DNA of 64,000 bases from contig NZ_UHFA01000002.1 in the NCBI RefSeq assembly GCF_900459175.1, positions 2,108,001-2,172,000 of the forward strand. Reading direction: 5' to 3'. This stretch comes from Streptococcus downei MFe28. GTDB taxonomy: Bacteria > Bacillota > Bacilli > Lactobacillales > Streptococcaceae. The notes below the pieces were generated by a model. That model did not search any database, had not been told where the DNA came from, and worked only from the letters and a program-made list of their open reading frames with translations. The position numbers were made by a program, and so were the translations under genes. Every line of letters starts with the position of its first letter. The stretch's first letter is position 1. Shown here piece by piece: positions 6,430 to 52,836 of the stretch.

Positions 6430-7062
6430 ATGCGTTTATATTTTGTCAGACACGGAAAAACCCAGTGGAACCTGGAAGGTCGCTTCCAAGGTGCTAGAGG
6501 CGACTCCCCTCTTTTAAAAGAATCCGTAGAAAATCTTAGGAAATTAGGACGCTACCTGGCAGATATCCACTTCGATAAGGTCTACACTAGTGATTTAAAG
6601 CGAGCCAGAGATTCGGCTTTCTTAATTATGGAGGAAAATCTGGTACCGACCGAAATTACTCCAGTTAGACCCTTAAGAGAATGGAATCTAGGACGCTTGG
6701 AAGGGCAGAAAATCTCGACCATCGCTTCGATTTATCCTAAACAGATGGAGGCTTTCCGCTATAATCTAGCCAAGTTCGATAATGATTTCTTTGAAGCAGA
6801 ATCTGTCTATCACGCCACCCGTCGGGTCGCTGACTTCGTGGCTGGCTTGGATTATGAGCATGACCAAAACGTTCTCTTGGTTGGGCACGGAGCCTGCTTT
6901 ACCGCTGCAACCAACTACCTCCTGGGCTTTGAGTCAGGGCAATTGCGGCGTTATGGGGGGCTTGATAATGCTAGTGTCACCATCCTTGATAGTAAGGATG
7001 GCAAAGACTTTGAGCTTATTCGCTGGAATGACACTTCCTACTTGGAAGGTCATACTCAATAA
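6430..7062 (+). CDS. Histidine phosphatase superfamily protein (phosphoglycerate mutase-like)
   Basis: 210 residues. The catalytic RHGKTQW motif (residues 7-13) supplies the phosphorylated histidine and first arginine. YTSDLKRARDSA carries the second arginine, and LLVGHGACF the second histidine. Family members are small-molecule phosphatases; this one is too divergent from metabolic GpmA to be the glycolytic mutase. It lies 21 nt after yccF, probably in the same operon. Its TAA stop (7060-7062) lies inside the end of the BOX-like element that begins at 7052. Confidence 0.85.
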   Translation: MRLYFVRHGKTQWNLEGRFQGARGDSPLLKESVENLRKLGRYLADIHFDKVYTSDLKRARDSAFLIMEENLVPTEITPVRPLREWNLGRLEGQKISTIASIYPKQMEAFRYNLAKFDNDFFEAESVYHATRRVADFVAGLDYEHDQNVLLVGHGACFTAATNYLLGFESGQLRRYGGLDNASVTILDSKDGKDFELIRWNDTSYLEGHTQ

Positions 7063-7297
7063 AAATCAAAAATAGCCAAGGCAAGGAGCAATGACATCAA
7101 GTCACTAAAGTGACTGATGTCAAACGGCAATCTCCATAGCGATTGCCTAGCTCCCTTACTAACCTCACAAAGTTGGTAAAATCGACCAACTTTGCTCCGC
7201 GTCGCACGAACTGAAGACAGCTCAAAAGGTCTGGGAGACCTTTTGAGCCACCTGCGGTTCGTGCGATGCCTCGGGTCTTTCGATTTTCATTGAGTAT
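7052..7297. repeat. BOX-like mosaic element with one hairpin cassette
   Basis: Ends ATACTCAAT (7052-7060) and ATTGAGTAT (to 7297) are inverted repeats of the BOX type. Inside, in order: hairpin 1 with arms GACATCA/TGATGTC (7093-7121), hairpin 2 with arms GGCAATC/GATTGCC (7126-7147), spacer TAGCTCCCTTACTAACCT, hairpin 3 with arms CAAAGTTGGT/ACCAACTTTG (7168-7194), and a boxB-like stem GCTCAAAAGGTCT/AGACCTTTTGAGC. It lies between two convergent genes and supplies the stop codon of each. Confidence 0.85.
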
Positions 7298-8049
7298 TAG
7301 TTTACATATTTGATTCCATAGTGAAACTTCTGGTTGGGACGGATTTGTCTTTGGAAACCAAAATCTTCAAAGACCGAGTCCCTAAAATGCCCTTTAATAA
7401 TGATGGCCTTGCTGGCTACCCGAGTGGCCTCTGCCATCAATTCTGGACTTAGTCGAGACTGGTTGGCTAGCGGTTTTAGACCAGCCAGATTTTTGGACTC
7501 TGCGATTTCCTGGCTAAACATGGGGTCAAAATAAATAACATCGAAGCTCTTATCCTCCTGGTCTTGCAAATAGGACAGTGCTTCCCGATTGAAGGTCCGG
7601 ATGGAGCGCATAGCCCTATCCAAATCAGGATTACCAGATTGAAAGTGGGCGAGACCCTGGCTAACAATCAAATGAATGAGAGGATGGGACTCAAGGGCTG
7701 TGACGTTATGGCCTGCCCAAGCCATAACAATACTATCGCTGGCCAGTCCCATAGTGGCGTCGAGAATCTTCAAAGGCTGGGTCCCCAGCAAATCTAAGAG
7801 GGGATCGTGAGGCGCCTTAATGCGCAAACTAGCCGTATCAGGATGAAGGACGAGCCGACCCCCCTGGGGGTGAACTAGGACCAATTTGTCCTGATAGACG
7901 ACGAGGGCTGAAGCCAGCCCACCCGTCAGCTTCTTTAGAGACTGCTTTCGCCTTTCCAGATAAGTAAAAGAATATTCTTGAGCCAGGTCTTGGGCCCTTT
8001 TCACCAAGTTAGAATCCTCGCTCAGACTGGTTGTGACAATAGTTTTCAT
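7297..8049 (-). CDS. RsmJ-like class I SAM-dependent methyltransferase
   Basis: 250 residues with a Rossmann SAM site (ILDATMGLASDSIVMA, acidic TALESHPL after strand 2) and a catalytic-type YFDPMF motif, as in RsmJ/YpiP proteins. RsmJ of E. coli methylates G1516 of 16S rRNA at N2; whether the Firmicute branch shares this target is not established. The stop codon (7299-7297) is contributed by the BOX-like element. Expressed convergently to the histidine phosphatase. Confidence 0.72.
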   Translation of the reverse strand: MKTIVTTSLSEDSNLVKRAQDLAQEYSFTYLERRKQSLKKLTGGLASALVVYQDKLVLVHPQGGRLVLHPDTASLRIKAPHDPLLDLLGTQPLKILDATMGLASDSIVMAWAGHNVTALESHPLIHLIVSQGLAHFQSGNPDLDRAMRSIRTFNREALSYLQDQEDKSFDVIYFDPMFSQEIAESKNLAGLKPLANQSRLSPELMAEATRVASKAIIIKGHFRDSVFEDFGFQRQIRPNQKFHYGIKYVN

Positions 8050-8205
8050 ACGGATATTATAGCAAAAATCAAGAGTCCAAGGTGACTCTCGATTTGTCCT
8101 GCCTAGAAATTAAAAAGCAAGGAAGATGGAAGATGATAGAGAGATTAGTTTTTTTCTGTCCCATGTAGCGAGAAAGGAACTTTTCAAGGTTTTTTCATCT
8201 GTCAT

Positions 8206-8619
8206 CTATTTGCTACTCACCACTTTACGTAAATACCAATAATAGATTCCAATCAAGCATAGAATAACTAGATCCAAAGCGAAATGCCAGCCAAAAATTT
8301 GAATCCGATTTCTAAAGAGACAGGTTACTATTACTAATAGGACATCTGCCCAAAAAGCTAGACCAGCCAGAGAAACAGCCGATTTATTTTTGAAAATATA
8401 GAAGATTGGAGTCAGTATTCCCCCCAATAAGTTACCTATCCACAAGATCAAAAGGAAGATAGGATAGTTGGTGAAGTAATCCTTGATAGCCGGGGTATAA
8501 AGTTCCGCAAAATAAGCCCGATTATGGGTCACCACCATGATAAAATCATAGCAACCAACCAGATTTAAGGAGAACATTAAGACTGCAAAGCAGATACCCC
8601 AAATAGTTAATTTTTTCAT
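8206..8619 (-). CDS. Small membrane protein, unknown function
   Basis: 137 residues with four hydrophobic helices separated by short loops, ending KVVSSK. No enzymatic motif is visible. Its ATG overlaps the TGA of the upstream XRE-AbrB regulator by 4 nt (ATGA), so the two are translationally coupled and probably functionally linked, for instance as a regulated membrane protein. I do not recognise the family. Confidence 0.7.
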   Translation of the reverse strand: MKKLTIWGICFAVLMFSLNLVGCYDFIMVVTHNRAYFAELYTPAIKDYFTNYPIFLLILWIGNLLGGILTPIFYIFKNKSAVSLAGLAFWADVLLVIVTCLFRNRIQIFGWHFALDLVILCLIGIYYWYLRKVVSSK

Positions 8620-9029
8620 TTTAGTAACCTCATTTCTTTAAAAGCTTGGACGAAAAAGTCACTGTTTATTAAAGCTAAGCCTTGATTGATATCGCCTAAA
8701 ACCATAAGCTCATCACCTTTCTTGATCTTAAAAAGTTTTCTCGCTCGTGCGGGAATGACAATTTGGCCTCTCTCTCCAACAGTTACTGTGCCAAAGACAT
8801 ATTTACCTTCTGTAGGCTTAGACATAAAGGGTAATTCATCTCCCTTAACCAATTCGTCTAAACTAATCTCAAAAATTTCTGCCAAGCGACTTGAAGAGAT
8901 AATATCCGGTAGGCTCTCGCCCAATTCCCATTTACTAAGGGTCTGGCGAGACACTCCGACCATTTCAGCTAGTGTTTCCTGAGAATAGTCTGCCTTTTTT
9001 CTAAGTGACTGAATTGTTTTATTAATCAT
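8616..9029 (-). CDS. XRE-type regulator fused to an AbrB/SpoVT domain
   Basis: 137 residues. Residues 1-58 form an XRE helix-turn-helix (YSQETLAEMVGVSRQTLSKW). After a linker, residues 75-125 form a SpoVT-AbrB swapped-hairpin DNA-binding fold (GTVTVGERGQIVIPARARK). Two DNA-binding folds in one chain suggest binding of complex operators, probably its own promoter. It forms a two-gene operon with the downstream membrane protein. An antitoxin-like role is possible, but the partner does not resemble a known toxin. Confidence 0.82.
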   Translation of the reverse strand: MINKTIQSLRKKADYSQETLAEMVGVSRQTLSKWELGESLPDIISSSRLAEIFEISLDELVKGDELPFMSKPTEGKYVFGTVTVGERGQIVIPARARKLFKIKKGDELMVLGDINQGLALINSDFFVQAFKEMRLLK

Positions 9030-9055
9030 ACTTTTCTTACCTCTTTTTTAGATTC

Positions 9056-9084
9056 ATTATATGGGGTTTTTATTGGATATTCAA
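9056..9084 (-). promoter_or_regulatory. Promoter of the XRE-AbrB operon
   Basis: Minus strand TTGAAT (9084-9079), 17 nt, TATAAT (9061-9056), 26 nt before the regulator's ATG. Near-consensus SigA promoter. Confidence 0.7.
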
Positions 9085-9128
9085 GCAAGTATATTGGCAA
9101 AACAAACGGTTTTTGTTGATAATCGTAG

Positions 9129-9150
9129 CAAAAAAAGCCCTACAGGGCTT
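9129..9150 (-). terminator. thrS terminator
   Basis: Minus strand stem AAGCCC/GGGCTT around TGTA, followed by seven T residues, 11 nt after the thrS stop. Confidence 0.8.
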
Positions 9151-9161
9151 CTTTCACTAGC

Positions 9162-11117
9162 TTATTTAGTTGCTTCTTCGGCTGGGCGGGATTTGCGGGC
9201 AATATCAGCCTGGATGTTGTCTACAAACTCATTCAGGCTTTCAGTATGGGTTTGCTTGCTACCATAGCGGCGGACATTGACCGACTTGTCAGCCATTTCT
9301 TTATCGCCAACAATCAATTGATAAGGAATTTTGTGCGTTTGACTTTGACGAATCTTATACTGCATCTTTTCGTTACGTTCGTCAACATCGACACGCACAC
9401 CATGATTACGGAGTTCCTTAGCTACCTCCCAAGCATAATCAGCATGTGCTTCGTTAGAAACTGGAATAACAGTAACCTGATGTGGAGCCAACCAAGTCGG
9501 GAAGGCACCCTTGTAGGTTTCAATCAGGTAAGCAGTGAAGCGTTCCATGGTTGACACGATACCACGGTGAATCATAACTGGACGGTGTTCTTCCCCATCA
9601 GCACCAATATAGGTCAATTCAAAGCGTTCAGGGAGTAAGAAATCTAATTGGATGGTTGATAAGGTTTCATCATTACCAAGAGCAGTCTTAACTTGGATAT
9701 CCAGTTTTGGACCGTAAAAGGCAGCTTCCCCTTCTGCTTCATAGTAATCTAAGCCCATATCATCCATGGCAGCCTTAAGCATGCGTTGAGATTTTTCCCA
9801 CATCTCGTCATCATCGAAATATTTATGCGTATCTGCAGGATCACGATAAGAGAGGCGGAAGCTATAATCGGTGATATTAAAATCTTCATAAACATCAATA
9901 ATCAATTGAAGGGTTTGTTTGAATTCATCTTCCACTTGATCTAGTGCAACGAAGGTATGACCATCATTGAGGGTCATTTCCCGAACCCGTTGCAAACCTG
10001 ACAGCGCCCCAGATTTTTCATAACGGTGCATCATACCAAGTTCCGCAATCCGAATTGGCAATTCACGGTAAGAATGCACGTGATTTTTATAGACTTGAAT
10101 GTGGTGGGGACAGTTCATTGGACGCAGAACGAATGCTTCACCGTCACCCATATCCATGGTTGGAAACATATCTTCACGGTAGTGATCCCAGTGACCTGAA
10201 GTCTTATAGAGGTCAACGGAAGCAATCGGTGGCGTGTAAACGTGTTGGTAACCAGAGGCCACTTCACGGTCTGTGATGTAGCGCTCAATGGTACGACGAA
10301 TAGTAGCCCCATCTGGCAACCAGAAAGGCAAGCCTTGTCCAACTTCTTGTGAAATCATAAAGAGGTCAAGTTCCTTACCGAGCTTACGGTGATCGCGTTC
10401 CTTGGCTTCTTCCAGGCGCTTGAGGTAGGCCTTAAGGTCCTTCTTATCAAACCAGGCCGTACCGTAAATCCTTTGCATCATGGCATTATCGCTATTTCCA
10501 CGCCAGTAGGCACCAGCCACATTCAATAGATGAAAAACTTGGATGCGGCCAGTTGATGGGACGTGAGGACCACGGCAGAGGTCCACGTATTCCCCCTGAC
10601 GGTAGATGGTCAGACCACCAGCATCTTCCGAGTGTTCTTCAATCAATTCCAATTTGTAAGGGTCGTTCTTGAAGATTTCCCGAGCCTGGTCCTTGGTCAC
10701 TTCCTCCCGAATGGATGGGAAGTTTTCCTTGACGATCTTCTTCATTTCTTCTTCGATCTTTGGTAGATCTTCATTGGAAATTTGACCAGCCCCATTATCG
10801 GTATCATAGTAGAAGCCATCCTCAATAGCTGGACCGACACCTAGATGAATATCTGGGAAAAGGCGACGAGCTGCTTGGGCAAAGAGATGGGCAGCAGAGT
10901 GGCGCAAAATTCCTAGAGCATCTTCGTGGTCGGGTGTCACGATTTCCAGGCTACCATCTTGGGTGATTGGCCGAGTCGTATCAATCAGTCTATCGTTGAG
11001 TTTCCCAGCCAAGGCTTTTTTAGCCAGAGAATTGGAAATAGTTTGAGCAATCTCAAAGGTTGTGATGCCAGATTCAAATTCTCGAACAGCACCATCAGGA
11101 AAAGTAATCTTGACCAT
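9162..11117 (-). CDS. thrS: Threonyl-tRNA synthetase
   Basis: 651 residues from the ATG at 11117, chosen because AAGGAGG lies 4-10 nt upstream and homologues begin MVKITFPDG; an in-frame longer reading (to 11204) would run through the T-box terminator and is not used. Domains: TGS (1-63), second editing-type domain with HSAAHL, class II catalytic core with zinc ligands (MNCPHH) and motif 2/3 signatures, and C-terminal anticodon-binding domain ([15 protein letters not shown]). Charges tRNA(Thr) in the cytoplasm. Expression is controlled by the T-box leader upstream. Monocistronic, with its own terminator. Confidence 0.97.
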
Positions 11118-11157
11118 AGTGGCCTCCTTATGATTTTTATAATGTTTACCAAGGCAG

Positions 11158-11372
11158 AAAAATAGCCTCACCTCCAAAAAGGACGCAAGACTACGTGGTA
11201 CCACCTTAGTTCGTCAATAGCCAAGCTATTGACCTTGTGTTTGGCTTTAAGGGAGCCACCCTTCTATGTTTCCATAAAAACAGGGAAGGAGTATTTCTTG
11301 ATAGACCTGTGCTTTTCCAGCGACCAAGCACTCTCTAAAAAGTCAAACACAAAAAACATATCTTCGATTTTT
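11158..11372 (-). promoter_or_regulatory. T-box leader of thrS with intrinsic terminator
   Basis: The minus-strand leader contains a distal stem I segment (AGAGAGTGCTTGG...AAAAGCAC), the T-box core TAAGGTGGTACCACG (about 11206-11192), and a 13-bp terminator TAGTCTTGCGTCC/GGAGGTGAGGCTA ending in TTTTT (11193-11158). The T-box core would pair with the acceptor end of uncharged tRNA(Thr) to block the terminator. I could not assign the threonine specifier codon with confidence. Confidence 0.9.
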
Positions 11373-11400
11373 ATTATAACAGGAAGAAGGAAATTTTCAA
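11373..11400 (-). promoter_or_regulatory. Promoter of the thrS T-box transcript
   Basis: Minus strand TTGAAA (11400-11395), 16 nt, TATAAT (11378-11373), immediately ahead of the T-box leader. Confidence 0.75.
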
Positions 11401-11436
11401 GTTCTAGTGGAAATTTCTACGGCAGATGGACAAAAA

Positions 11437-11889
11437 TTATTGTAGATATAATAAAACTAACAAGGTAATTGGAATTAGGAAATCCGGAAGGATGATGACA
11501 ACATTACCAGCATTGGTATTATGACTAATAATCAATTCTCTGATATGATTGATGCCAGCCCCAATTAGAAAAAAAGAGAGAACAATTAATAGAGGTAGAG
11601 AATTTTGTCCATTATTGGACAAGCCACAGTAGACCCCACTAACTCCAATTCCCAAAGTTATCAGACCAAGCTCTTTCTGAAAGCCATTGGAAGTCCAACC
11701 TATTGACCGAGCTACCCTCTCACTAAAGATAAAATGTCCAAGAAATCCAAAGACCCCAAAAAAACCAATACCAAAGACCAGGTGGGCCTGTAAAAGACTA
11801 GTAACCAGACCTTTTTCTGGAAAAATAAAAGCAATCCTAAAATCCAACTGATCACATATGAAATAATGTAGGCCATTTTTTATTATCAA
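11437..11889 (-). CDS. Small membrane protein, DUF6790-like
   Basis: 150 residues with four hydrophobic segments. The loop FSERVARSIGWTSNGFQKELG resembles the ExxAxxIGW...FQxE signature of DUF6790 proteins (from memory). Function unknown. It lies between the thrS promoter and the glycosyltransferase pair on the same strand; no clear ribosome-binding site is seen at the first ATG, so the start is uncertain. Confidence 0.55.
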   Translation of the reverse strand: MIIKNGLHYFICDQLDFRIAFIFPEKGLVTSLLQAHLVFGIGFFGVFGFLGHFIFSERVARSIGWTSNGFQKELGLITLGIGVSGVYCGLSNNGQNSLPLLIVLSFFLIGAGINHIRELIISHNTNAGNVVIILPDFLIPITLLVLLYLQ

Positions 11890-11927
11890 CCTTCTAATGA
11901 TCCGTTCTACGGTTTAAAATTAGGCAC

Positions 11928-13262: not shown

Positions 13263-13263
13263 C

Positions 13264-14380: not shown

Positions 14381-14658
14381 GTGATTTTTCCTAGACTAAG
14401 TTCCACTTCGTTATAAAGTGGAACTTGCTTTGGGAATTTAGCAAAATCAGCACGAATGGCCTAGCATTCAAGCCTGACACAAATGATTTTGACTCCAAAT
14501 AGTCAAGGCAGACCTCGGATTTAAGAACTTGGAGGTCTGCTACCGGTTATACAAGAACCCAGACTCGGCAAACTGACAGCCAAAAAAGAGGTTGGGACAG
14601 ACAGCCTAACCTCGTTACTTTTTCAACATGACGCAGTAGTTGATTTGCGATGTGGCAA

Positions 14659-14775
14659 AGTCATCTGGCTACTAAAAGTAGCCGATGACTAACAGTAAGC
14701 ACTATTGTACTTACTTAGCCACCTCACTAGCTACGCTAAAACTATCGATATTATAGTTTTAGCGTAGCGTCGTGT
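14659..14775 (+). repeat. Isolated three-hairpin cassette
   Basis: Same architecture as the cassettes inside the BOX-like elements but with different arm sequences. Hairpin 1 (14659-14690) nests AGTCATC/GATGACT and GGCTACT/AGTAGCC. Hairpin 2 (14695-14714) is GTAAGCA...TACTTAC. The spacer is TTAGCCACCTCACTA. Hairpin 3 (14730-14768) has 16-nt arms starting GCTACGCTAAAACT. GTCG follows, as in the other copies. No BOX ends are visible here. The remaining bases of 14263-14839 show no gene. Confidence 0.75.
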
Positions 14776-16953: not shown

Positions 16954-16969
16954 ATCTTTCTCCCCTTTT

Positions 16970-17487
16970 ATACTCTTCGAAAATCAAAATTTTCCCACGG
17001 GTAAAGTCACTCTATGATTTCTCATTAGAGTGACTGCGAAAACTACGATTGTAGTTTTCTATATCCCTGACTAATTTCATAAAAACTGGAATATTGACAG
17101 TTTTTACTCCATGTCGCGTCGTTAACTCACTTTGCTGTACTTACTGAGGAAAGCAAAGCTTTCCCGATTTCCAACCTCAAAAGGTCTGGGGGACCTTTTG
17201 AGCTATCTTCACTTCGTGCGATGCGGAGCAAAGTTGGTCGATTTCAACAACTTTGTGAGGTTAGTAAGGGAGCTAGGCAATCGCTATGGAGATTGCCGTT
17301 TGGGAGTAAGACAGAAGGAATTTGACAGATGTCAAAACCTTCGTTGTCTTACCCCAGCAAGGGTGACTAGCTGTCTGCTGTGCCACAAAGTGGTGCAAAG
17401 ATAGCAGACACCTACTGCGACATCAGTCACTTTAGTGACTTGATGTCATTGCTACTTTCCTCGGCTAATTCGATTTTCCTTGAATAT
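16970..17487. repeat. BOX-like mosaic element with two inverted cassettes and extra stems
   Basis: A 518-bp composite with ATACTCTTCGA at the left and a degenerate TTGAATATT end. Left half: hairpin arms AGTCACTCT/AGAGTGACT, AAAACTAC/GTAGTTTT, then AAAAACTG/CAGTTTTT. A boxB-like CTCAAAAGGTC/GACCTTTTGAG lies in the centre. The right half is the inverted cassette: CAAAGTTG/CAACTTTG, GGCAATC/GATTGCC and GACATCA/TGATGTC. Two additional nested stems sit before the last hairpin: 17306-17352 (GTAAGACA/TTGTCTTAC) and 17372-17410 (TGTCTGCT/AGCAGACA). Confidence 0.82.
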
Positions 17488-23496: not shown

Positions 23497-23531
23497 GATA
23501 ACTCCTTTAACTGAATTTTTTGACATAGCTT

Positions 23532-23888
23532 ATACTCAATAAAAATCAAAAATAGCTAACGGCAATCGCTGTGGAGATTGCCTAGCTCCCTTACTAACCT
23601 CGCAAAATTGGTGAAATCGACCAACTTTGCTCTGCGTCGCACGAACTGCAGGTAGCTCCAAAGGTCTGGAAGACCTTTGGAGGTTGGAAATAGGGAAAGC
23701 TTCGCTTTCCTCAGCAGGTACGGCAAAGTGAGTTAACGATGCGACATAGAGTAAAAACTGTCAATATTACAGTTTTTATGAAATTAGTCAGGGATATAGA
23801 AAACTACAATCGTAGTTTTCGTAGTCACTCTAAAGAGAAATCATAGAGTGACTTTATCCATGGGATTGTTTTGATTTTTGAAGAGTAT
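23532..23888. repeat. BOX-like mosaic element with two inverted cassettes
   Basis: 357 bp with ends ATACTCAAT and GAAGAGTAT. The left cassette has only hairpin 2 (GGCAATC/GATTGCC), spacer TAGCTCCCTTACTAACCTC and hairpin 3 (AAATTGGT/ACCAACTTT). The centre has AAAGGTCT/AGACCTTT. The right inverted cassette has AAAAACTG/CAGTTTTT, AAACTAC/GTAGTTT and AGTCACTCT/AGAGTGACT. It is close to a reverse copy of the element at 44083. Confidence 0.85.
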
Positions 23889-24019
23889 TAGCTGAAAAAT
23901 GAAGCCTGATAGGCAAGACCCCTAACCTTGGGCACCCCTCAAACTTCTTCTCATGAGCCTAGCTGCTTTTGCAGAGAAGGTCTGATGTCACCTGTAGCAT
24001 TTTACATCCTTTTAAATCC

Positions 24020-31282: not shown

Positions 31283-31627
31283 ATACTCATTTAAAGTCAA
31301 AACTAACTTTTTGATACTTTCTAACGTAGCAAGTTTATCAGTGATTAAAAACCACTGATAAACTACGGTAATCGCTAGTGCGAGTTACCTAACTACCTTA
31401 CTCTTCCATTTTCAAAATAGCATCGATTTTGAAAATGGAATGTCGTTTAAAAGTGCGGACGCAAGAAGAAAGATCCAGTGGATGATTTCTTTGAATCCAA
31501 AGGAGTTTGATACCAGTTTGGCGAAAGTATCAGGCTATCTTTTCCTCATTGGCTTAAAAAGTATGCCTTATTAGCCAGATAGAACCATGCGAAAGCCATA
31601 AGTATTAAGTTTTGAACTTTAGAGTAT
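31283..31627. repeat. Mosaic repeat with one cassette between secG and rnr
   Basis: 345 bp with ends ATACTCATTTAAAGTC and ACTTTAGAGTAT. It contains the three-hairpin cassette: GTTTATCAGTG/CACTGATAAAC, GGTAATCG/CGAGTTACC, spacer TAACTACCTTACT and TTTTCAAAAT/ATTTTGAAAA, then GTCG and the GTGCGGACG block shared with the GACTTGTTCG-type elements at 1951 and 52254. BOX-like ends and the second-type core therefore occur in the same element. Confidence 0.78.
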
Positions 31628-38060: not shown

Positions 38061-38073
38061 ATTATCTTCCTCT

Positions 38074-43309: not shown

Positions 43310-44083
43310 ATGACCTTTTCACAAAAAATTCAGGCAGCCTGTCGGGCCAAGGAAGAACTGATAGACCAGCATATGGTCCGCTATGCTGTTAAGTCCATCT
43401 TTGCTGGAGCCTTTCTGACCCTTTCCACGGGCGTTGGTGGTATTGCAGCCGATGTCATCAATCAGATTCATCCCAGCCTCGGTCGCTTCGTCTTTCCTTT
43501 CATCTTTAGCTTCGGCCTGGTCTATATTCTCTTTTTAAACTCCGAGCTAGTCACTTCAAACATGATGTACCTGACCGCTGGGGCCTACTACCGCTACATT
43601 TCCGTCAAGAAGGTCCTGAAAATTTTGGTCGTCTGCACCCTCTTCAATCTGGTCGGGGCAGCCTTGATTGCCGCCCTCTTTAATCAAAGTTTCGCCTACA
43701 CCTTGGTGACCCCAAAGAGTTTCCTCGTCGGTGTCGTCCAAACCAAGCTGGCCAAGACCTCTAGCCAGATTTTCTTTGATGCCATTATTGCTAATATCTT
43801 TGTTAATATTGCCATCCTCTCCTACCTTCTAGTCAAGGACCAGACAGCCAAGACTATTCTAGTCATCTCGGCCATCTTTATGTTTGTCTTTATGAACGCA
43901 GAACACTTGGTGGCCAACTTCTCTTCCTTCCTCTTAATGGGCTTTAATTCCGTCCATCTGGATGGTTACAATCTGGCCAATATCCTGCGCCACTGGGGAA
44001 TTTCCTTCATCGGAAACTGGATTGGTGGTGGCCTCCTTATCGGGGCGGCCTACGCCTTTCTCAATAAGAAGGAGAACCAGTAA
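43310..44083 (+). CDS. Formate/nitrite transporter (FNT) family channel
   Basis: 257 residues, six hydrophobic helices. FNT features include the N-terminal KSIFAGAFLTLSTG and LVTSNMMYLTAG around the central pore, and ANIFVNIAI in the second half. Conducts small monocarboxylates such as formate, the pyruvate formate-lyase product. The gene lies opposite in strand to ybeY and phoH. Its stop (44081-44083) runs into the BOX-like end at 44083. Confidence 0.9.
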   Translation: MTFSQKIQAACRAKEELIDQHMVRYAVKSIFAGAFLTLSTGVGGIAADVINQIHPSLGRFVFPFIFSFGLVYILFLNSELVTSNMMYLTAGAYYRYISVKKVLKILVVCTLFNLVGAALIAALFNQSFAYTLVTPKSFLVGVVQTKLAKTSSQIFFDAIIANIFVNIAILSYLLVKDQTAKTILVISAIFMFVFMNAEHLVANFSSFLLMGFNSVHLDGYNLANILRHWGISFIGNWIGGGLLIGAAYAFLNKKENQ

Positions 44084-44484
44084 TACACTTCAAAAATCAA
44101 AACTATCCTACGGATAAAGTCACTCTATGATTTCTCTTTAGAGTGACTACGAAAACTACGATTGTAGTTTTCTATATCCCTGACTAATTTCATAAAAACT
44201 GTAATATTGACAGTTTTTACTCCATGTCGCATCGTTAACTCACTTTGCCGTACTTACTGAGGAAAGCGAAGCTTTCCCTCTTTCCAACCTCAAAAGGTCT
44301 CCCAGACCTTTTAAGCTACCTGCAGTTTTTGCGATGCAGAGCAAAGTTGGTCGATTTCACCAACTTTGTGAGGTTAGTAAGGGAGCTAGGCAATCGCTAT
44401 AGAGATTGCCGTTAGCTATCAAGCCACTATAGTGGCTGATAGCTTCGCTCCTTGCCTCGGCTATTCTTGATTTTTATTGAGTAT
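44083..44484. repeat. BOX-like mosaic element with two complete inverted cassettes
   Basis: 402 bp. Left end ATACACTTC, right end ATTGAGTAT. Left cassette: AGTCACTCT/AGAGTGACT, AAAACTAC/GTAGTTTT, AAAAACTG/CAGTTTTT. Centre: CAAAAGGTCT/AGACCTTTT. Right cassette, inverted: CAAAGTTGGT/ACCAACTTTG, GGCAATC/GATTGCC and AGCTATCA/TGATAGCT. The right-hand hairpin 1 has arms unlike those of the other copies but is still self-complementary. Confidence 0.87.
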
Positions 44485-44510
44485 AAATCCCATATCATCC
44501 AATCATACCC

Positions 44511-45560: not shown

Positions 45561-45612
45561 ATAGACTACCTCTTTCTATGCTTAGTTTAGCCCCATTATA
45601 ACGTATTTAAGA

Positions 45613-45646: not shown

Positions 45647-45687
45647 ACTCCTTCTTCTTATCTGCAAATTAAAAAAGATAACTTTTT

Positions 45688-45903
45688 CTAATGGGCCAGA
45701 TAGTCTTCCCAAATTTGGTCGAATTGGCCTAGGTTAAAGCTAAAGCTGGCCTGATCTTCCAGATAGCGGCTGACTTCTTCGAAGTCATCGGTGTGTTTTG
45801 GGAAGGTGCTATCGTTAAAGGCTAGGTCTGCCAACAGGGCTGCTGGTTCCTGGGATTTGGGATTGCGTTGCGTCATCAGCCAAGTATAAAAAGATTTTCT
45901 CAT
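45688..45903 (-). CDS. YozE family protein (UPF0346)
   Basis: 71 residues from the ATG at 45903 ([15 protein letters not shown]), the standard start in streptococci. The family pattern [16 protein letters not shown] and FDQIWEDYL is complete and forms a SAM-like helical bundle. Function unknown. The ATG shares a base with the msrA stop (TAATG), so translation is coupled. Confidence 0.9.
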
Positions 45904-46409
45904 TACCAATGCTCCTTTAAAAATTGATGACGAAGCTCGCTTGAAAGAGCATAGCGTAAGGGATTCTTCTTGTAGAACTGCTGGTGGTAGCCCTCCGCTG
46001 GATAGAAGGTCTGGGCAGGTTCTATCTTAGTGACAATGGGAGCATCGAAGCGACCAGATGCCTGTAAATCAGCCTTGGAGGCCTCTGCCAGCTCTTTTTG
46101 CTGCTCATTCTCATAGAAAATGACCGGACGGTAATTGTCGCCACGATCCTGGAATTGACCAAAGGCATCGGTGGGGTCGGTCTGAGCCCAGTAAATCTCT
46201 AAGAGTTTTTGATAAGAAACCTGAGTCTCGTCATAGATGATCTCAACAGCCTCGGTATGGCCAGTCTGTCCAGTACAAACCTCTTCATAGCTAGGGTTAA
46301 TGACATGACCTCCCGTATAGCCTGATAGAACTGACTGAACCCCAGGATAGGTCTCGAAGGGTTGGACCATACACCAAAAACAGCCACCCGCAAAAATTGC
46401 TCGCTCCAT
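45903..46409 (-). CDS. msrA: Peptide-methionine (S)-S-oxide reductase
   Basis: 168 residues. Catalytic GCFWC motif at residues 9-13 and the conserved [24 protein letters not shown], given here only as GYTGG and GHTE landmarks. Reduces Met-S-sulfoxide in proteins using thioredoxin. An AGGAGG-like site precedes the ATG. Operon with yozE. Confidence 0.95.
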
Positions 46410-46480
46410 AATAGCACCTCCTTATGATTGTCTATTATAGCACATCCCCCAAGTAAAACTGCCTTCTAGAAATTTTGCTT

Positions 46481-46588
46481 ATACTCTTCGAAAATCAAAA
46501 TTTTCCATCGTTAACTCACCTTGCCGTACTCCACTCCAGTACTGTCTTCGGTTCGTTGCCTCGGCTAATTTCGATTTTCATTGAGTAT
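46481..46588. repeat. Short BOX-like element without cassettes
   Basis: 108 bp with ends ATACTCTTCGAAAATC and GATTTTCATTGAGTAT. The interior keeps only linker fragments seen in the large elements (CGTTAACTCACCTTGCCGTA, TTGCCTCGGCTAA). It shows what remains when cassettes are absent. Confidence 0.85.
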
Positions 46589-46673
46589 TGCTCCCCCTTC
46601 AAGAGCGCTCGCTAACCAAATAGTAAACTCTGCAAGTGTTCAAAAAATATCCTCCTTATTTTGTTGGTCCCAC

Positions 46674-46705
46674 AAAAAAAGCCAAGCCCGATAAGGGGCT
46701 TGACC
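46674..46705 (-). terminator. Terminator after the PepSY gene
   Basis: Minus strand CAAGCCC (46702-46696) pairs with GGGCTTG (46689-46683), followed by GCTTTTTTT. Confidence 0.88.
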
Positions 46706-46729
46706 TTGAAATTAGCTATCTTGCTTTAC

Positions 46730-47667
46730 TTATTCGTACTCATCGTTAAGATCTTCGTCATCGTCATCTCCGTCATGATGGTCTTGATAGTGGTCACCAT
46801 CGTAATCACTGTCATCATTACCGGCTTGGTCATCGGCTTGACTGGAAGTAGAGCTACTTGAGGTGCTTCCTTGAGAGCTTTGACTTGATGAGCTAGTTTC
46901 AGATGAGGGACTCGTTTGATTCGTTTGTGAAGATGAATTGGTTTGGTTAGATTGACTTGATGAATTATCGGTATCGTTATCAATTTCCAAAATGCTGCCA
47001 TTTACAGCGCTAACAACACAGGAATAGCCGCATTCACCATACTTGAAATTAATCTTATAAACTGGGGAATCATCTTGTTGGTCCTGGTCGACCTTCAATT
47101 CACCAACTTGGTTTTCAGCTAAACCAGCGTTATGAAGGGCGATTTGCTTAGCCTCTTCATTTGTAACACTTGCTTGATTTTGGTTACCCGATGCTTGAGA
47201 AGATGAGCTTGATCCAGCCTGGCTAGATTGCGAGCTTGAGCTACCGGCCTGTGAGCTGGTAGCCGTGCCATTTGTTGGAACTGAACTGCTTGGTGCTGAA
47301 CCCGTTGGTGTAGTCCCTCTATTTGCTTGTGAGTTTTGGGACTTATTGTCCTTTTGCGTTACCGTTCCCTTGTGAGCATCAATAGTATAGTCGTATTCCT
47401 TTTGACCTTCTTGAAATCGACAAGGTAAACTTCCTCATTTTGGTAACGAGTCTTTTCCACCTTAGTAAAGTGAGCCTGATTCTCATTTACACCACAACCC
47501 TTAAGGGCCACAGTCTTAGCCTGCTCCTGGCTGATACAATCAGCACTAGAATGGGAATTAGCAGAAACGGCAGATACACCACCAAGACCGGCTACAGCAA
47601 GACCTAGCGTTGTCAAAATAGCATAGGAGAGCTTTTTGGTTTTCATTAATTGTGTCATTTTTGTCAT
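46730..47667 (-). pseudogene. Secreted double-PepSY protein with acidic tail, broken by a one-base deletion
   Basis: Start at 47667 with AAGGAG 8 nt upstream and a signal peptide ending near VSANS. PepSY domain 1 (ISQEQAKTVALKGCGV ... EEVYLVDFK) is cut at a frameshift near 47411, where AAGAAG probably replaced AAAGAAG. In the other frame the protein resumes with EGQKEYDYTIDAHKG, then a Ser/Gln/Gly-rich linker, PepSY domain 2 (TNEEAKQIALHNAG ... YGECGYSCVV) and a tail rich in Ser, Gln, Asp and His ending DDDDEDLNDEYE. The restored protein would have about 312 residues. Unusual cysteines occur in both domains. A role in surface metal or protease control is inference. Confidence 0.85.
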
Positions 47668-47668
47668 T

Positions 47669-47818
47669 GGTTTTTCTCCTTACGATTCTTACGCCACTAG
47701 CAACCCAAACCGGTTACAAGGAGCCGGCTAGCTTGTTTGTGAATGGTGCTTTACCTTCCGGATACAGCAAAGTTCCCATTCAGAAAAAACGAGGCAACCT
47801 GAGCTGACCTCGCCCCCC
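47669..47818 (-). promoter_or_regulatory. Structured 5' leader of the PepSY gene
   Basis: About 140 nt between the promoter and the start codon. Directly after the promoter comes CGAGG...CCTCG followed by TTTTTT, an early terminator-like hairpin. Next comes TGAATGG/CCATTCA enclosing CTTT/AAAG, then CTAGC/GCTAG enclosing CCGG stems. The arrangement suggests attenuation; no known riboswitch class was recognised. Confidence 0.5.
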
Positions 47819-47847
47819 ATTCTAACGAGGTAAAAATCTTCTGTCAA
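47819..47847 (-). promoter_or_regulatory. Promoter of the PepSY gene
   Basis: Minus strand TTGACA (47847-47842), 17 nt, TAGAAT (47824-47819): consensus -35 and near-consensus -10. A GGCGC-rich short palindrome lies just upstream. Confidence 0.78.
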
Positions 47848-48170
47848 GCGCCCCCCGGCGCTTGTAATATAAGGATTAGACTTAAAAGGCAGGACTGTTG
47901 CGCCATTATTTCATGGCAGATTAGTGCCTCTATGGTCTCTAGACTATGAAAGAAATTGAAAGTAACAAAAATTTTACAGAAAGTCTCGCAACTGAAATTT
48001 ATCCAAGGTCAATGGTTCACACAATTTTCATGCCACCCATTTGAAGGCTGGTCATGAGTATAAGGAGGCTAGGGTAGCGCGATGTGTCCAAGCACTTATC
48101 AGCTCCTAGATGAGAATAAAAACAGCCCAGAACCAAAACTTATTCTTCCAGACCATCCCCCTTAGCTCAC
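47848..48170. other. Intergenic region, no gene seen
   Basis: 323 bp between the PepSY promoter and the cpsD terminator. No ORF, repeat element or clear site. Confidence 0.5.
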
Positions 48171-48193
48171 AAAAAAAGAAGCCCTCAGGCTTC
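48171..48193 (-). terminator. cpsABCD terminator
   Basis: Minus strand GAAGCC (48193-48188) pairs with GGCTTC (48183-48178), followed by TTTTTTT. It ends the operon 9 nt after cpsD. Confidence 0.85.
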
Positions 48194-48201
48194 CTTAATC
48201 T

Positions 48202-48942
48202 TTATTTAGCACGACGCAGGTGACTCGTGTGTTCGCTTTTATCTTTGGACGATGGCTTGCCGTAATCACCATAGCTACCGTAACTACCATAGTTGCCGTA
48301 GTTTTCCGATTTCTCATCAACCTTATTAAGGATAACGCCCAAGAATTGAGCCCCACTCTTTTCCATCTGCTCAATGGCTTTCCGAATGAAGCGGCGACGA
48401 ATGACCCCAGCCTCAGTAATCATGATAGAGGCATCACAATCCTGAGCGATGATAGCCGCATCAACGACCTTGCCAATCGGTGGTGTATCAATCAAGACAT
48501 AATCATAATGTTCCCGAACCGCCTCAATCATCCGCTTGAAGTTATCGCTCTGAAAGAGGGCCGTCGGATTTGGTGGGACCTGTCCCGAAGGAATCATAGT
48601 CAGGTTAGGAACGCTGGTCCGACTGATAGTGGTCTGCAAGTCAGCATGTCCTGACAAGAAGTCGGTCAGACCCTTAAGGGGAGCATCAGGTTTAAAGCTC
48701 CCCATCATGACAGAGTTTCTGGTATCCGCATCAACCAGAAGGGTCCGGTAGCCCGCACGGGCGAAAGATACTGCCAAGCTCATGCTTGTCGTGGACTTCC
48801 CTTCTTTGGGTTGAACCGAGGTCAAAGCAATGACCTTGATGTCACTACCACTAAACTGGATATTAGCTCGGATGGAATTGTAGTATTCCTTAGCCTTATC
48901 CATCAATTTTTCTTTGTTACTAGCTAATTCTAAGTATCCCAT
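48202..48942 (-). CDS. cpsD: Capsule/EPS tyrosine kinase CpsD (Wze)
   Basis: 246 residues. Walker A in PKEGKSTTS, Walker A' LLVDAD and Walker B VLIDTPP define a BY-kinase. The C-terminal tyrosine cluster has alternating YG repeats (NYGNYGSYGSYGDYG) that are autophosphorylated. It works with CpsC as transmembrane adaptor to control polysaccharide chain length and attachment. GAGGAAG precedes the ATG. Last gene of the module; a terminator follows at once and no glycosyltransferase genes are present. Confidence 0.95.
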   Translation of the reverse strand: MGYLELASNKEKLMDKAKEYYNSIRANIQFSGSDIKVIALTSVQPKEGKSTTSMSLAVSFARAGYRTLLVDADTRNSVMMGSFKPDAPLKGLTDFLSGHADLQTTISRTSVPNLTMIPSGQVPPNPTALFQSDNFKRMIEAVREHYDYVLIDTPPIGKVVDAAIIAQDCDASIMITEAGVIRRRFIRKAIEQMEKSGAQFLGVILNKVDEKSENYGNYGSYGSYGDYGKPSSKDKSEHTSHLRRAK

Positions 48943-48950
48943 ACTTCCTC

Positions 48951-49640
48951 CTATAGGCTGTCGGTATTGGGAACAACCCCAAGCAAGGTGCGACCAAGTG
49001 CCTTTTCAACATCTTCACTCGTCTTGATACGATCATCAAGAGCCTCAAAAAGAATCAAAATCACAATAGCAATGAAGCCACCGGCTGCGACCCCAAGAAC
49101 AAAATTCTTCTTGACACTTGGCGAGGTTGGTGACGTTGGTACCTTGGCCGTTTCTGCTGTGGTGACATCCTCAACCTTGGTAACATCCTTGATTTTTTGG
49201 ATAGCAATTTCACGCACAGCATTCGCCAAACGACTGGCCTCCTGTGGGCTCTTATCCTTGACAGAAATCGTAATCAGGCGGGTATCCGTTGGCACATCAA
49301 TACTAATCTTTTGAGAAAGTTCACCAGCACTAATGTCCAACTTTTCCTTGCTGACAACATCTTCCAAGACATCCTGAGACTTGATAATTTCCTTATAGTC
49401 ATTAACCAAGTCGGTTCCTACTTGGATGTCCTGATAATTGATGGAATTATTGTTGCTACTATTAACCACATAGACTCGGGTGGCAGAGGTATAGGTTTTA
49501 GGAATGATAAATACACTAACAAACAGGGCCACGAAGCCAAACAGTAGGGCCACGAAAATAATTAAAAATTTTCGGTTCCATAATTTCTTAAGTAGGGCGA
49601 ATACATCAATTTCAAATGATGCATTATCTGCTGAAGTCAT
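48951..49640 (-). CDS. cpsC: Capsule/EPS chain-length adaptor CpsC (Wzd)
   Basis: 229 residues, Wzz-type: two transmembrane helices (about 25-46 and 180-202) around an extracytoplasmic domain with VPTDTRLITISVKDKSPQEA, and a short cytoplasmic tail that activates CpsD. It precedes cpsD by 8 nt. It is separated from cpsB by 143 nt, more than the near-overlap I recall for other streptococcal cps loci. Confidence 0.94.
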   Translation of the reverse strand: MTSADNASFEIDVFALLKKLWNRKFLIIFVALLFGFVALFVSVFIIPKTYTSATRVYVVNSSNNNSINYQDIQVGTDLVNDYKEIIKSQDVLEDVVSKEKLDISAGELSQKISIDVPTDTRLITISVKDKSPQEASRLANAVREIAIQKIKDVTKVEDVTTAETAKVPTSPTSPSVKKNFVLGVAAGGFIAIVILILFEALDDRIKTSEDVEKALGRTLLGVVPNTDSL

Positions 49641-49783
49641 AGGTTCTCCTTTTGATTGTGATAGTTAAGGGAGCATGATAGGCCATCATGAAAGCTTTGA
49701 CCTTATTGGCCTTATCCCAGCCTAAAAATTCATGTGGGACCAAGGATTCTTAGAGAAAATTGCCAAAGTCCAATCAGCTTTCC

Positions 49784-50515
49784 TTAATTAGTTTTATCCT
49801 CGAGAAGGGCTTGCATATTCTCCTTGAAGAGGGCTTGAGCTCTAGCTTGGCCATAGGTCTTAGCAACTAAGTCATAGGCCTCTTTCATATAAGGGGGGCG
49901 CTTATCAAGGTTATGCATGTCGCTAGCAATACAGTGAACGAGGTCTGCTTCCAAAAAGTAGCGTCCCCTTTGCTTAAAGACCTTCTCCTTGTCGCCAAAG
50001 AGTTTGGGCTTGAGGACATGATTGCTGTTGACTTGAGTATAACAGCCCATGTTGATAATTTCCTGAACACGGTCAGGTTTATTTTCTAGGGCATTGTAGC
50101 GTTCAATATGAGCAACAAGGGGAGTGATTCCCAACATTAAGACCTTGGTCAGGGCCTGGTGGATATCTCGCCAAGGTGTTGTCATACTAAATTCAATCAA
50201 GGCATAGCGACTACCGTCCATGGTTGGAACAAGATTTTTCTCTAATTTCTGACGAAGATCTTCTGTGTAATAGAGTTCTCCCCCATAGAGAATGCTTAGG
50301 TCGGGGAATTTTTTCTCAGCCGCTTCTTTGACCTTTAAAAAGTTGGCATGAATTTTTTCCTCTGGCGTTTCAAACATATCCTTACGCCGATGCGAGGTTG
50401 AAACAAGGATCCGAACCCCCTGGCGGTAGCTCTCGGAGATTAGATTGAGGCTTTCCTCCAGGCTCTTGGGCCCATCATCCACATCAAAAACAATGTGCGA
50501 ATGAATATCTATCAC
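49784..50515 (-). CDS. cpsB: Manganese-dependent protein-tyrosine phosphatase CpsB (Wzh)
   Basis: 243 residues, PHP superfamily. Metal ligands are visible in MIDIHSHIVFDVDDG, STSHRRK, ALIEF, VAHIERY and CIASDMHN. Dephosphorylates CpsD. Starts 2 nt after cpsA. Confidence 0.95.
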   Translation of the reverse strand: MIDIHSHIVFDVDDGPKSLEESLNLISESYRQGVRILVSTSHRRKDMFETPEEKIHANFLKVKEAAEKKFPDLSILYGGELYYTEDLRQKLEKNLVPTMDGSRYALIEFSMTTPWRDIHQALTKVLMLGITPLVAHIERYNALENKPDRVQEIINMGCYTQVNSNHVLKPKLFGDKEKVFKQRGRYFLEADLVHCIASDMHNLDKRPPYMKEAYDLVAKTYGQARAQALFKENMQALLEDKTN

Positions 50516-50517
50516 AC

Positions 50518-51981
50518 TTACTTACCTCCTAAAACATCTTTAATCTTGTCAGCCGCATCGGATACGCTGGCATCATCCAGTTGCATCATGTAGAGGGAAG
50601 CTCCAGGCATGGCATAGGAAGGCAATTCTCCTGTTGAGCCTGTACCCGTAACAGCTTGGGAGCTGACCTTGAAGGAAGCTCCTGAGTCCAATTGCGTATT
50701 GGCAATAGTCATCAAATCGCTGATTGGCATATTGGTTTGGATGGAATCTTGGAGATTGTTGGCGATAGAGGAAATCTTAGAAACTGATTTCGCCGAGGCC
50801 AACTTATTGATGATGGCTGTGATGACCTTCTCTTGGTTCTTACCGCGGTCATTATCACCATTTTCTAGACTATAACGTTCACGAACAAAGGCCAGAGCAC
50901 CTTGTGAATCTAAATGGACATTGCCCACTTCAAAGGTATAATCCTTGTTGGTGTGGGCGGTAAAGGCCTGGTCGTTATAAACGTCAATACCACCTAGCAG
51001 GTCAACTAACTTGAGGAAGGAGGTAAAGTTGAGGCGGGCATAATAATCAATGTTGATATTGTAAAGATTTTCTAAGGTCTTCATAGATGTCTGAACACCA
51101 TAGATACCAGCGTGGGTCAGCTTATCCTTTTGGTTGTTACCTCCATCTGGGATGGTAACGTAGGCATCACGAGGGGTTGTGGTCAAGAGAACCTTGTGAG
51201 TCTTAAGGTTGATGCTGGCAATAATGTTAACATCGGATCGAGAAACTGAGTTAATCGGACCGTAGGTGTCGATACCAGAAATATAGATATTAAAGGCATT
51301 GGTATCAACCTTTTTATTGGATTCAACCTTATTAGCCGTTTGAATCTTATGGCTATAGATGGTCCTAACCTTCTTACTGAAATCCTTGTCCTGGGCTTCA
51401 ATCAGACTAGAGTAGGCACTATTCAGAATAATGGCCTTGGTAGAACCGGACATCAGGTCATTATAGGCCTGGGCATAGGAATCGACATGATTGACGGTTA
51501 TACTCTTGGACTTATCTGCCTTGATTTCTTTGACGAATTCATCAATATTAGTGCCATCGCTTTGGGTTGGTGCCTCGACTTCATCAATGTTTTCTAAGTC
51601 CTTAATGGAACTATCCTTGGGCACAACGATGCTCATTTCTACCTGAGAATACTTGGTGGAGTCATTAAGAGTGCCAATGAAGTTAACAAACTTATTAAAG
51701 CCAAGAAAAGTCAGGGCAGAAATCACCGTAAAAATCACTAAGAGGACACTGGTCCACATCTTGGCGCGATTCTTAACAATGAGAAAGGCCGCTAAAACAA
51801 ATACTACGGCTAGGAGGACTGTAAAAATAAGGTTAAGGTATTTCGAAGCCAAAAAATTATATTTATAGGTGATAAAGAGGGTCATCGCTGAAACCGCCGT
51901 ATAGAGTATAAATAATAAAATATTGACGAAATAATGCGTGCTAAAACTCTTAGACTTGGATCGATTATGTCTTGCCATCAT
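50518..51981 (-). CDS. cpsA: LytR-CpsA-Psr family protein CpsA (Wzg)
   Basis: 487 residues. Three N-terminal helices (about 18-38, 48-68 and 76-94) are followed by the accessory domain and an LCP catalytic domain with the conserved arginines and Asp in SRSDVN, TTPRDAYV and FVRERYSLENGDNDRGKNQ, given in parts. LCP proteins transfer undecaprenyl-linked glycopolymers to peptidoglycan. First gene of cpsABCD; GGAG lies upstream of a tandem ATG-ATG. Confidence 0.95.
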   Translation of the reverse strand: MMARHNRSKSKSFSTHYFVNILLFILYTAVSAMTLFITYKYNFLASKYLNLIFTVLLAVVFVLAAFLIVKNRAKMWTSVLLVIFTVISALTFLGFNKFVNFIGTLNDSTKYSQVEMSIVVPKDSSIKDLENIDEVEAPTQSDGTNIDEFVKEIKADKSKSITVNHVDSYAQAYNDLMSGSTKAIILNSAYSSLIEAQDKDFSKKVRTIYSHKIQTANKVESNKKVDTNAFNIYISGIDTYGPINSVSRSDVNIIASINLKTHKVLLTTTPRDAYVTIPDGGNNQKDKLTHAGIYGVQTSMKTLENLYNINIDYYARLNFTSFLKLVDLLGGIDVYNDQAFTAHTNKDYTFEVGNVHLDSQGALAFVRERYSLENGDNDRGKNQEKVITAIINKLASAKSVSKISSIANNLQDSIQTNMPISDLMTIANTQLDSGASFKVSSQAVTGTGSTGELPSYAMPGASLYMMQLDDASVSDAADKIKDVLGGK

Positions 51982-52012
51982 TGCTTCTCCAGTATTATTG
52001 ATTTCACGCTTT

Positions 52013-52041
52013 ATTATACCTAATTTTTACGACAAGTCCAA
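52013..52041 (-). promoter_or_regulatory. cpsABCD promoter
   Basis: Minus strand TTGGAC (52041-52036), 17 nt, TATAAT (52018-52013), 32 nt before cpsA. Confidence 0.75.
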
Positions 52042-52253
52042 GGAAGTTTAACCCATTTTTAACGTGTCTGTCATAATTTAAACAGTTAACGAAGCTCTGA
52101 AATGGCTTTAGACTAGCCATTTAGCAAGATTGGTTAGCTTCTTTTCCATTAAAAAAATATTTTCAGCTGAGTTTTTTTACAGTCAACAAATCCCAGACTA
52201 AACTCACATCGGTCGTTAATAATTTCAAGGTTTAATGGTGTTTTTCTTTATTA

Positions 52254-52836
52254 AACCTGTTCGAAAAAGTGCTTTTGGTCGAAATCAAACTTATTATTTT
52301 GATACTTTCTAACCTAGCAAGTTTATCAGCGACTTTTAATTGCTGATAAACTACGGTAATCGCTATGGCGATTTACCTAGCTACCTTACTAATACCATTT
52401 CCAAAATATCATCGATTTTGAAAATGTCATGTCGTTAAGTAGTGCGGACGGAAGCGACCACCTTTGGCGTTCCATTCCAACACGAAGTTAGTCCAGTCGA
52501 TATTACTGGACTAGCTGAGTTAGTCAGGAAGCTAACCCATCTCAATGGAGATGGACGTTTGACATCAGACACTTTAGTGGCTTGATGTCTTTGCTTCCTG
52601 CTATTTTTTGAGCCCTTCGCTTTTACATTTTTAGGCTCAGGCAGATTTCGTCCACTGGACGAAATCTCTTCAAAAAATCCGTTATTAGCAACAAAAAGAG
52701 TTGTTGCTAATAATGCCACTACGGCGAAAGTATCACCTAGGTTCACTCTCCCTCTATAATTTAGAAAATTAAATATCCCTGTATTTTCTGCCGGAGGGAG
52801 CATTTGAGGAAAGTGAACATATCTCCAAACAAGTCC
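52254..52836. repeat. Large GACTTGTTCG-type mosaic element with two cassettes
   Basis: About 580 bp with imperfect ends (CCTGTTCGAAAAAGT; right end related to GGACTTGTTTGGAGA in reverse). Left cassette: GTTTATCAGCGA/TTGCTGATAAAC, GGTAATCG/CGATTTACC, spacer TAGCTACCTTACTAA, CAAAAT/ATTTTG. Shared core: GTGCGGACGGAAGCGA and GGCGTTCCATTCC. Right cassette, inverted: TAGTCCAG/CTGGACTA, CCATCTC/GAGATGG, GACATCAGACAC/GTGGCTTGATGTC. Then the TTTCGTCCACTGGACGAAA and TTATTAGCAACAA stems shared with the element at 1951. Confidence 0.83.

Follow-up and report, generated by a model that had tools for sequence, protein, structure and literature searches.

The window analyzed here is a stretch of 64,000 nt from the 2.23-Mb genome of Streptococcus downei MFe28 (contig NZ_UHFA01000002.1, positions 2,108,001 to 2,172,000) that carries 11 copies of a hairpin-rich repeat unit of around 126 nt, referred to below as the cassette. 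All 11 were recovered with E ≤ 6.2e-16 by a first covariance model built from ten cassettes, six of them from the window and four from elsewhere in the same genome. The unit comprises four helices (hairpins 1, 2, and 3 plus a helix that we call P2): hairpins 1 and 2 are closed by P2 into a three-way junction, and beyond it come the conserved linker ACTAA, then hairpin 3, and lastly the tetranucleotide GTCG. A first-pass annotation of this DNA had proposed the shared order hairpin 1, hairpin 2, spacer, hairpin 3, and GTCG, and this order can be read directly in 9 of the 11 cassettes; the exceptions lack hairpin 1 (23519-23639) or have it split off (17219-17348). GTCG likewise ends most cassettes but is replaced by ATCG at 44332 and 17219 and by GTTG at 52478. 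The presumed spacer AGCTCCCTTAC, which had been taken for a conserved contact point, is instead the 3′ strand of P2 and pairs with the 5′ edge of the cassette.

This anatomy is complete in the type I cassette at 7079..7204 (+ strand, 137.2 bits), where the two strands of P2 (7085-7089 and 7150-7154) enclose hairpin 1 (7093-7121) and hairpin 2 (7126-7147), with hairpin 3 at 7168-7194 and GTCG at 7201-7204. A free-standing cassette lies at 14646..14772 (+, 112.3 bits; P2 formed by GTGGC at 14652-14656 and GCCAC at 14718-14722). The composite BOX-type element at 16970-17487 combines a type II cassette on its left (16993..17116, +, 76 bits) with a type I cassette on its right (17219..17348, −, 72.2 bits), whose hairpin 2 is found at 17276-17297 and whose hairpin 1 lies around 120 nt away from it, beyond an inserted segment, at 17419-17447; the detached piece scores 25.5 bits at 17386-17461. 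In 23532-23888, the left cassette (23519..23639, +, 71.4 bits) is the one without hairpin 1, its hairpin 2 being the exact inversion of hairpin 2 at locus L029, and the right cassette is of type II (23742..23865, −, 87.1 bits). A type III cassette within 31283-31627 (31320..31445, +, 106.7 bits) forms P2 from GTAG (31326-31329) and CTAC (31393-31396). The element at 44083-44484 carries a type II cassette on the left (44106..44229, +, 86.7 bits) and a type I cassette on the right (44332..44457, −, 134.7 bits), and the one at 52254-52836 a type III cassette on the left (52308..52434, +, 112.3 bits) and another cassette on the right (52478..52603, −, 115.1 bits); a remnant at 1989-2179 resembles the right part of this last element. 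Among the window copies, P2 reads as AAGGAGC/GCTCCCTT (one mismatch), GTGGC/GCCAC, GTAG/CTAC, and GGATA/TATCC. Nine of the 11 cassettes were folded computationally, each with a z-score between −4.2 and −8.6 and none of 200 shuffles as stable; P2 is absent from the computed folds of some copies. An outer helix between GTCG and the 5′ edge is present in some folds, but it was dropped as by eye it is not constant across types.

The same helices are evident in larger alignments, namely set A4 (143 places of the window's genome, 140 distinct rows) and set A7 (103 distinct rows from other species), both fitted to the structure and biased toward pairing to that extent. Over all helices, 90.5% of cells are paired in A4 with a covariation of 0.565, compared to 0.172 for shuffled alignments and at most 0.086 when the partner strand is slid, and the values for A7 are 92.4% and 0.741 (0.177 shuffled). 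P2 alone covaries at 0.627 in A7 (88.4% paired; 0.151 shuffled, at most 0.113 slid) and at 0.454 in A4 (89.9% paired; 0.153 shuffled, at most 0.066 slid). Loops and linker are conserved among the aligned copies. The earlier proposal that the arms always stay complementary, which was to be checked with a covariance model over genome-wide copies, survives insofar as pairing far exceeds both kinds of control, but some arms are unpaired and "always" is too strong. Complete arm replacement with kept pairing fared similarly, in that both arms do change but at least partly by exchange of whole hairpins. The annotation was right that the element goes beyond the pneumococcal boxA-boxB-boxC; the fold is real and, as far as our literature search shows, new.

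Covariation is usually taken to prove that an RNA fold is under selection, and a selected RNA is what had been proposed. In this view, a structured RNA lying between cistrons or at the 3′ end would be recognized by a protein or the ribosome, and compensatory mutations would maintain its fold. Conserved loops and linker speak for such an RNA, as does the covariation of P2, which requires the three-way fold. The mark of a selected structured RNA would be that wobble pairs are tolerated far above A-C mismatches, and this is not what we find. Counts of Watson–Crick, G-U, A-C, and other combinations over all helix cells are 3915/155/127/300 in A4, 2893/88/69/175 in A7, and 1854/92/49/149 in set A8, which alone shows a modest G-U excess. 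The ratio of G-U to A-C is 23:22 (40 rows) and 14:10 (17 rows) in the first units of arrays anchored at stop codons (see below), and 68:68 when only distinct helix forms of helices paired to at least 60% are counted. By contrast, RNase P RNA of 24 streptococci, treated in the same way, gave 178:4 in variable pairs (24 of 30 loci, 58 genomes; predicted structure). The near parity in the cassette is unlikely to be an effect of fitting because the model accepts G-U but not A-C. Among close orthologues at prfC, groEL, obgE, and nrdE (sequence pairs of at least 85% identity from these four gene groups, which are not independent of each other), double changes from one Watson–Crick pair to another (32) are more frequent than changes that gain or lose G-U (11) or A-C (19), and a further 26 are of other kinds. 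Furthermore, no Rfam covariance model matched the cassettes of the window or 20 other loci at E ≤ 0.1.

Hairpins that have been inverted in place also argue against a selected RNA. Hairpin 2 occurs in the genome of the window in pairs of forms that are exact inversions of each other (18 versus 5 copies, 6 versus 1, and 1 versus 1; 19 versus 1 in type II). The same holds for hairpin 3 (31 versus 1) and, once five bases are trimmed at each end, for hairpin 1 (6 versus 1). Hairpin 2 is the only 22-nt segment of the 27 complete type I copies that has exact inversions. Loops that are inverted in place are regarded as a sign of template switching between strands (PMC8794818). Since G-U is near A-C and hairpins are inverted in place, part of the covariation can arise at the DNA level without selection on RNA, and the earlier proposal of a selected RNA is not well supported; a single-stranded DNA fold, which the annotation had named as the alternative, may still apply. 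Modules seem to be exchanged as well, because one prfC locus (L168) joins, as judged by eye, hairpins 1 and 2 of one type to hairpin 3 of another. The hairpin inversions are new as far as our literature search shows.

In other streptococci, unlike cassettes form tandem arrays at many loci, with neighbors often around 124 nt apart. The cassette and the frame upstream of it share a strand in 51 of 57 loci and in 33 of 40 of a second set. In 52 of 87 distinct arrays, a long frame on this strand has its stop codon exactly at cassette positions 3-5 (TAA in 42, TGA in 7, and TAG in 3); both the strand and this frequently fixed start would suit a selected RNA. These 87 arrays are best-match loci (L118-L170) together with 40 regions chosen from the order-level search in genomes with several matches; repeats of one sequence were dropped, and the obgE-neighbor loci (L171-L200) were left out here and partly used in other counts. 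Other offsets are −6 in six arrays (grpE), −11 in four (a lactose-type phosphotransferase system (PTS) gene), and various in five. As a control, the opposite strand at the other end of the array lacks a stop codon within 60 nt in 85 of the 87 and has one in only 2. The main offset recurs in 12 gene families, namely prfC (release factor 3), obgE, nrdE, argS, groEL, pdhA, ftsX, pheS, dnaK, parE, corA, and a PTS IIAB gene. It was not built into the model because the training copies, which come from the window's genome, rarely lie at stop codons. To the extent that our literature search shows, an exact register in a dozen core gene families is new. The trinucleotide TAA also borders many units: among 161 of 179 units (those without an intact 3′ end or identical to others were dropped), it follows 104, stands at the 5′ edge of 75, and flanks 60 on both sides, compared to a background of 0.02 per position.

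Of the 30 obgE loci, 13 lack an array and have a gap of just 11-51 nt (the protein end FEFEFVD is common to several of these), and the remaining gaps span 220-1366 nt with cassettes readable in most. Other hairpin modules (CCCGAGCC...AAAGCGAGG, AGTCTGGGGATAGACT, and AGTCCAGTGGACT) are by eye interleaved with cassettes in this gap (L171-L200), and the hairpin modules seem to make up an exchangeable set. An array in the window's genome (L114, 601-1097) contains three unlike cassettes by the model and a fourth between them by eye, with GTGTCG|CAAC-like junctions. In the grpE|dnaK gap, GCGTCCGCAC resembles GTGCGGACGC of the type III elements of the window, and Rfam SSRC8_2 (Streptococcus sRNA 8) matches below its gathering score beside a cassette (L163 1803-1910 and L161 1741-1842); these matches are a neighboring module, and we rejected SSRC8_2 as the identity of the cassette.

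A search of the entire genome of the window with the first model returned at least 146 matches at E ≤ 1 (best 150 of 1276 candidates scored). In 94 sources (the window and 93 further stretches), this model finds 143 matches at E ≤ 1e-5, each at a distinct place. A second model was trained on 51 copies from this genome and, in line with the annotation's proposal to search other streptococci, gave matches at E ≤ 1e-5 in 172 of 197 Streptococcus genomes. A sample of the family Streptococcaceae gave 99 of 147 genomes in 3 of 10 genera, and a sample of the order gave 42 of 295, all of them Streptococcus (1 of 74 genera). Copy numbers in these searches are lower bounds because at most 17 (genus), 23 (family), and 11 (order) candidates were scored per genome. 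Named matches include S. suis strains, S. sobrinus, S. gallinaceus, and Streptococcus sp. HF-1907. The cassette belongs to a repeat family of the Streptococcaceae, and its genus-wide range is new as far as our literature search shows; among the titles listed in that search, none dealt with such cassettes outside S. suis. Spread by phages was considered after a 16-base pattern, the single one tried, matched 16 viral contigs, but the model finds no cassette at E ≤ 1e-4 in the stretches examined.

Several cassettes of the window reside in elements with inverted ATACTC..AAAATC termini of the BOX type. The terminus TATACTCTTCGAAAATC at 16969..16985 (+) was identified by pattern match, and the same pattern recurs at 7282-7298 (−), 23531-23547 (+), 23873-23889 (−), 44082-44098 (+), and 44469-44485 (−), so that it marks both ends of 23532-23888 and 44083-44484 but one end of 16970-17487 and of 7052-7298. 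The left end of the latter (CATACTC...) and the degenerate right end of 16970-17487 were identified by direct reading, and the pattern has no match at the cassette at 14646. Genome-wide, a BOX-type terminus lies within 45 nt upstream of 54 of 125 cassettes. It has thus been shown in part that the cassette is now a component of mobile BOX-type elements that hold many of its copies in this genome. The empty site of the 44083 element was sought in relatives, but even the closest sequences there have diverged, with short stretches of no more than 84% identity. BOX elements of S. suis include boxE and boxF modules with mean sizes of 115 and 133 nt (PMC3049150, in part), and the end cassettes of the composite elements most likely are these published modules, a likeness drawn from size and layout. 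In addition, the window contains a very short BOX-type element at 46480-46589, with two termini around 110 bp apart, and a T-box leader (RF00230, 11176-11374, −, 85.4 bits, below the gathering score of 93) directly upstream of a long reverse-strand frame at 9162-11204.

Taken together, we favor the view, which we hold as an even call, that the cassette belongs to a REP-like (repetitive extragenic palindromic) family of stop-codon-anchored repeats whose hairpins are renewed in DNA by template switching and module exchange and not chiefly by selection on RNA. In many species, the unit occurs either alone or as tandem arrays, frequently with TAA at its borders, and the first unit often begins exactly at the stop codon of the upstream gene, on the same strand. 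Hairpins would form in DNA, one arm being recopied from the other by template switching with complementarity kept, and entire hairpins or blocks would be exchanged between copies. Pairing may be held largely at the DNA level because G-U and A-C are near parity, double changes exceed single ones, and hairpins are inverted in place. Copies behind stop codons would last because the protein is left intact there, and they could then play a REP-like role, in which ribosomes that terminate, or exonucleases in the interval between co-transcribed genes, would run into the structure. By analogy with reports on E. coli REPs near stop codons, they may affect termination or mRNA decay. It is possible, though doubtful, that exchangeable hairpin cassettes placed exactly behind the stops of core genes, such as those for release factor 3, chaperones, ribonucleotide reductase, and aminoacyl-tRNA synthetases, influence termination or set how much of the next gene product is made relative to the first, with their fold renewed by DNA template switching; if so, structure would be inherited while sequence is not.

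Several observations weigh against a REP-like family renewed in DNA. P2 needs selection or whole-block exchange because its halves lie around 60 nt apart, beyond the reach of template switching within one hairpin. The G-U excess of A8 (92:49, p = 0.0004 if cells were independent, which they are not; other cassette sets were not significant) leaves room for some RNA-level preference. Simple decay of copies also yields parity of G-U and A-C, and the contrast with RNase P overstates the case because that RNA is more constrained than a dispersed repeat. With regard to the register, such a stop codon is missing from the nearest 60 nt in 20 of the 87 arrays, although five of the 20 start 73-225 nt behind obgE, nrdE, dnaK, or argS; the 87, with numerous orthologues among them, are not independent. 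In the genome of the window itself, where 125 of the 146 listed matches were scanned for stops of frames of at least 80 codons, only 2 cassettes are in the main register, one of them behind the end of prfC, and 108 are without such a stop codon in the scanned range. Finally, no mobilizing enzyme or autonomous element was seen in the loci read, PF01797 being the only family searched for. Counted by presence, this Y1 transposase occurs in 11 of 14 genomes, both with high and with zero copy number of the cassette, and it was provisionally set aside as the mobilizer because it does not track copy number in these genomes; genome G086 has ten PF01797 matches, some of them fragments, and at least 13 cassette matches (17 candidates scored).

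We consider it rather unlikely that the cassette is primarily a transposition substrate whose hairpins are read in single-stranded or cruciform DNA by an unknown transposase that inserts units beside TAA, with stop codons being safe TAA sites in tight operons. TAA on both sides of 60 of the 161 units fits this, and tandem units, the copy number in the window's genome, the BOX-type inverted termini, and the obgE gaps of 11-51 nt at 13 of 30 loci compared to arrays in gaps of hundreds of nucleotides point the same way. In a comparison with miniature inverted-repeat transposable elements (MITEs), inverted ends were not seen in the cassette itself, with no systematic search made. However, random insertion at noncoding TAA predicts few stop codons, as the window has 38 TAA stops among its 63 predicted genes but 743 intergenic TAAs on either strand, and the occurrence of Y1 genes in genomes with and without cassettes and the lack of an autonomous element in the loci read offer no help. 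Also rather improbable to us are plain mobile BOX modules without function, with register and pairing as by-products. BOX elements are indeed viewed as parasitic, and the tie to stop codons has precedent because 36 of the 58 genes that overlap a pneumococcal BOX take their stop codon from it (both PMC3049150, in part). Against this stand the register, which recurs in 12 conserved gene families unrelated to one another, and the occurrence of the cassette in 172 of 197 Streptococcus genomes. A selected RNA, finally, is unlikely given G-U to A-C ratios near parity outside A8, the in-place inversions, and the lack of an Rfam family on the cassettes searched.

In the cassettes, covariation is strong even though G-U and A-C are almost equally common and hairpins occur inverted in place, and a significant R-scape result would not separate selection from template switching. 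One can therefore ask directly of these repeats if hairpins can be maintained by DNA copying alone, and their exact register in unrelated core genes provides many natural reporters for structure behind stop codons in gram-positive bacteria. BOX-type modules, reported from a few species, are now tied to a cassette present in most streptococci sampled.

Compared to known systems, the cassettes of the window resemble BOX elements of S. suis (boxE...boxF and boxA...boxC; RepSU1) and of pneumococci as composite repeats with variable inner modules and inverted ATACTC..AAAATC ends, and their size is close to the means of boxE and boxF. They also share with pneumococcal BOX that the stop codon is often provided by the repeat. 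Unlike in the accessible part of PMC3049150, which describes no three-way junction, covariation (the terms covari-, compensatory, and hairpin are absent), hairpin inversion, or cassettes outside BOX, all of these are seen here, and their broad range differs from pneumococcal repeats that were reported as almost entirely absent from other streptococci then sequenced (PMC3049150, in part). Multi-base compensatory changes and loops inverted in place are shared with template-switch hairpins in RNA genes, but the cases treated in the available portion of PMC8794818 are reconstructed histories of rRNA and microRNA genes and ours are dispersed copies of one bacterial repeat. REPs of the GTAG and CGTC families are palindromes of 20-40 bp with an unpaired GTAG or CGTC tag (PMC3733652, in part), in contrast to the four-helix cassette, which measures around 126 nt and has GTCG or ATCG at its end, and no link to a Y1 transposase was seen for the latter when presence and copy number were compared in 14 genomes. 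Nevertheless, the cassette is, like REPs and bacterial interspersed mosaic elements (BIMEs), palindromic, intercistronic, clustered, and close to stop codons, at least in other streptococci (few copies are so placed in the window's genome). Effects on translation, including that of the nrdAB transcript, were reported for E. coli REPs that lie no farther than 15 nt from a stop codon (as cited in PMC12306157, in part), and the cassette is likewise present at nrdE|nrdF.

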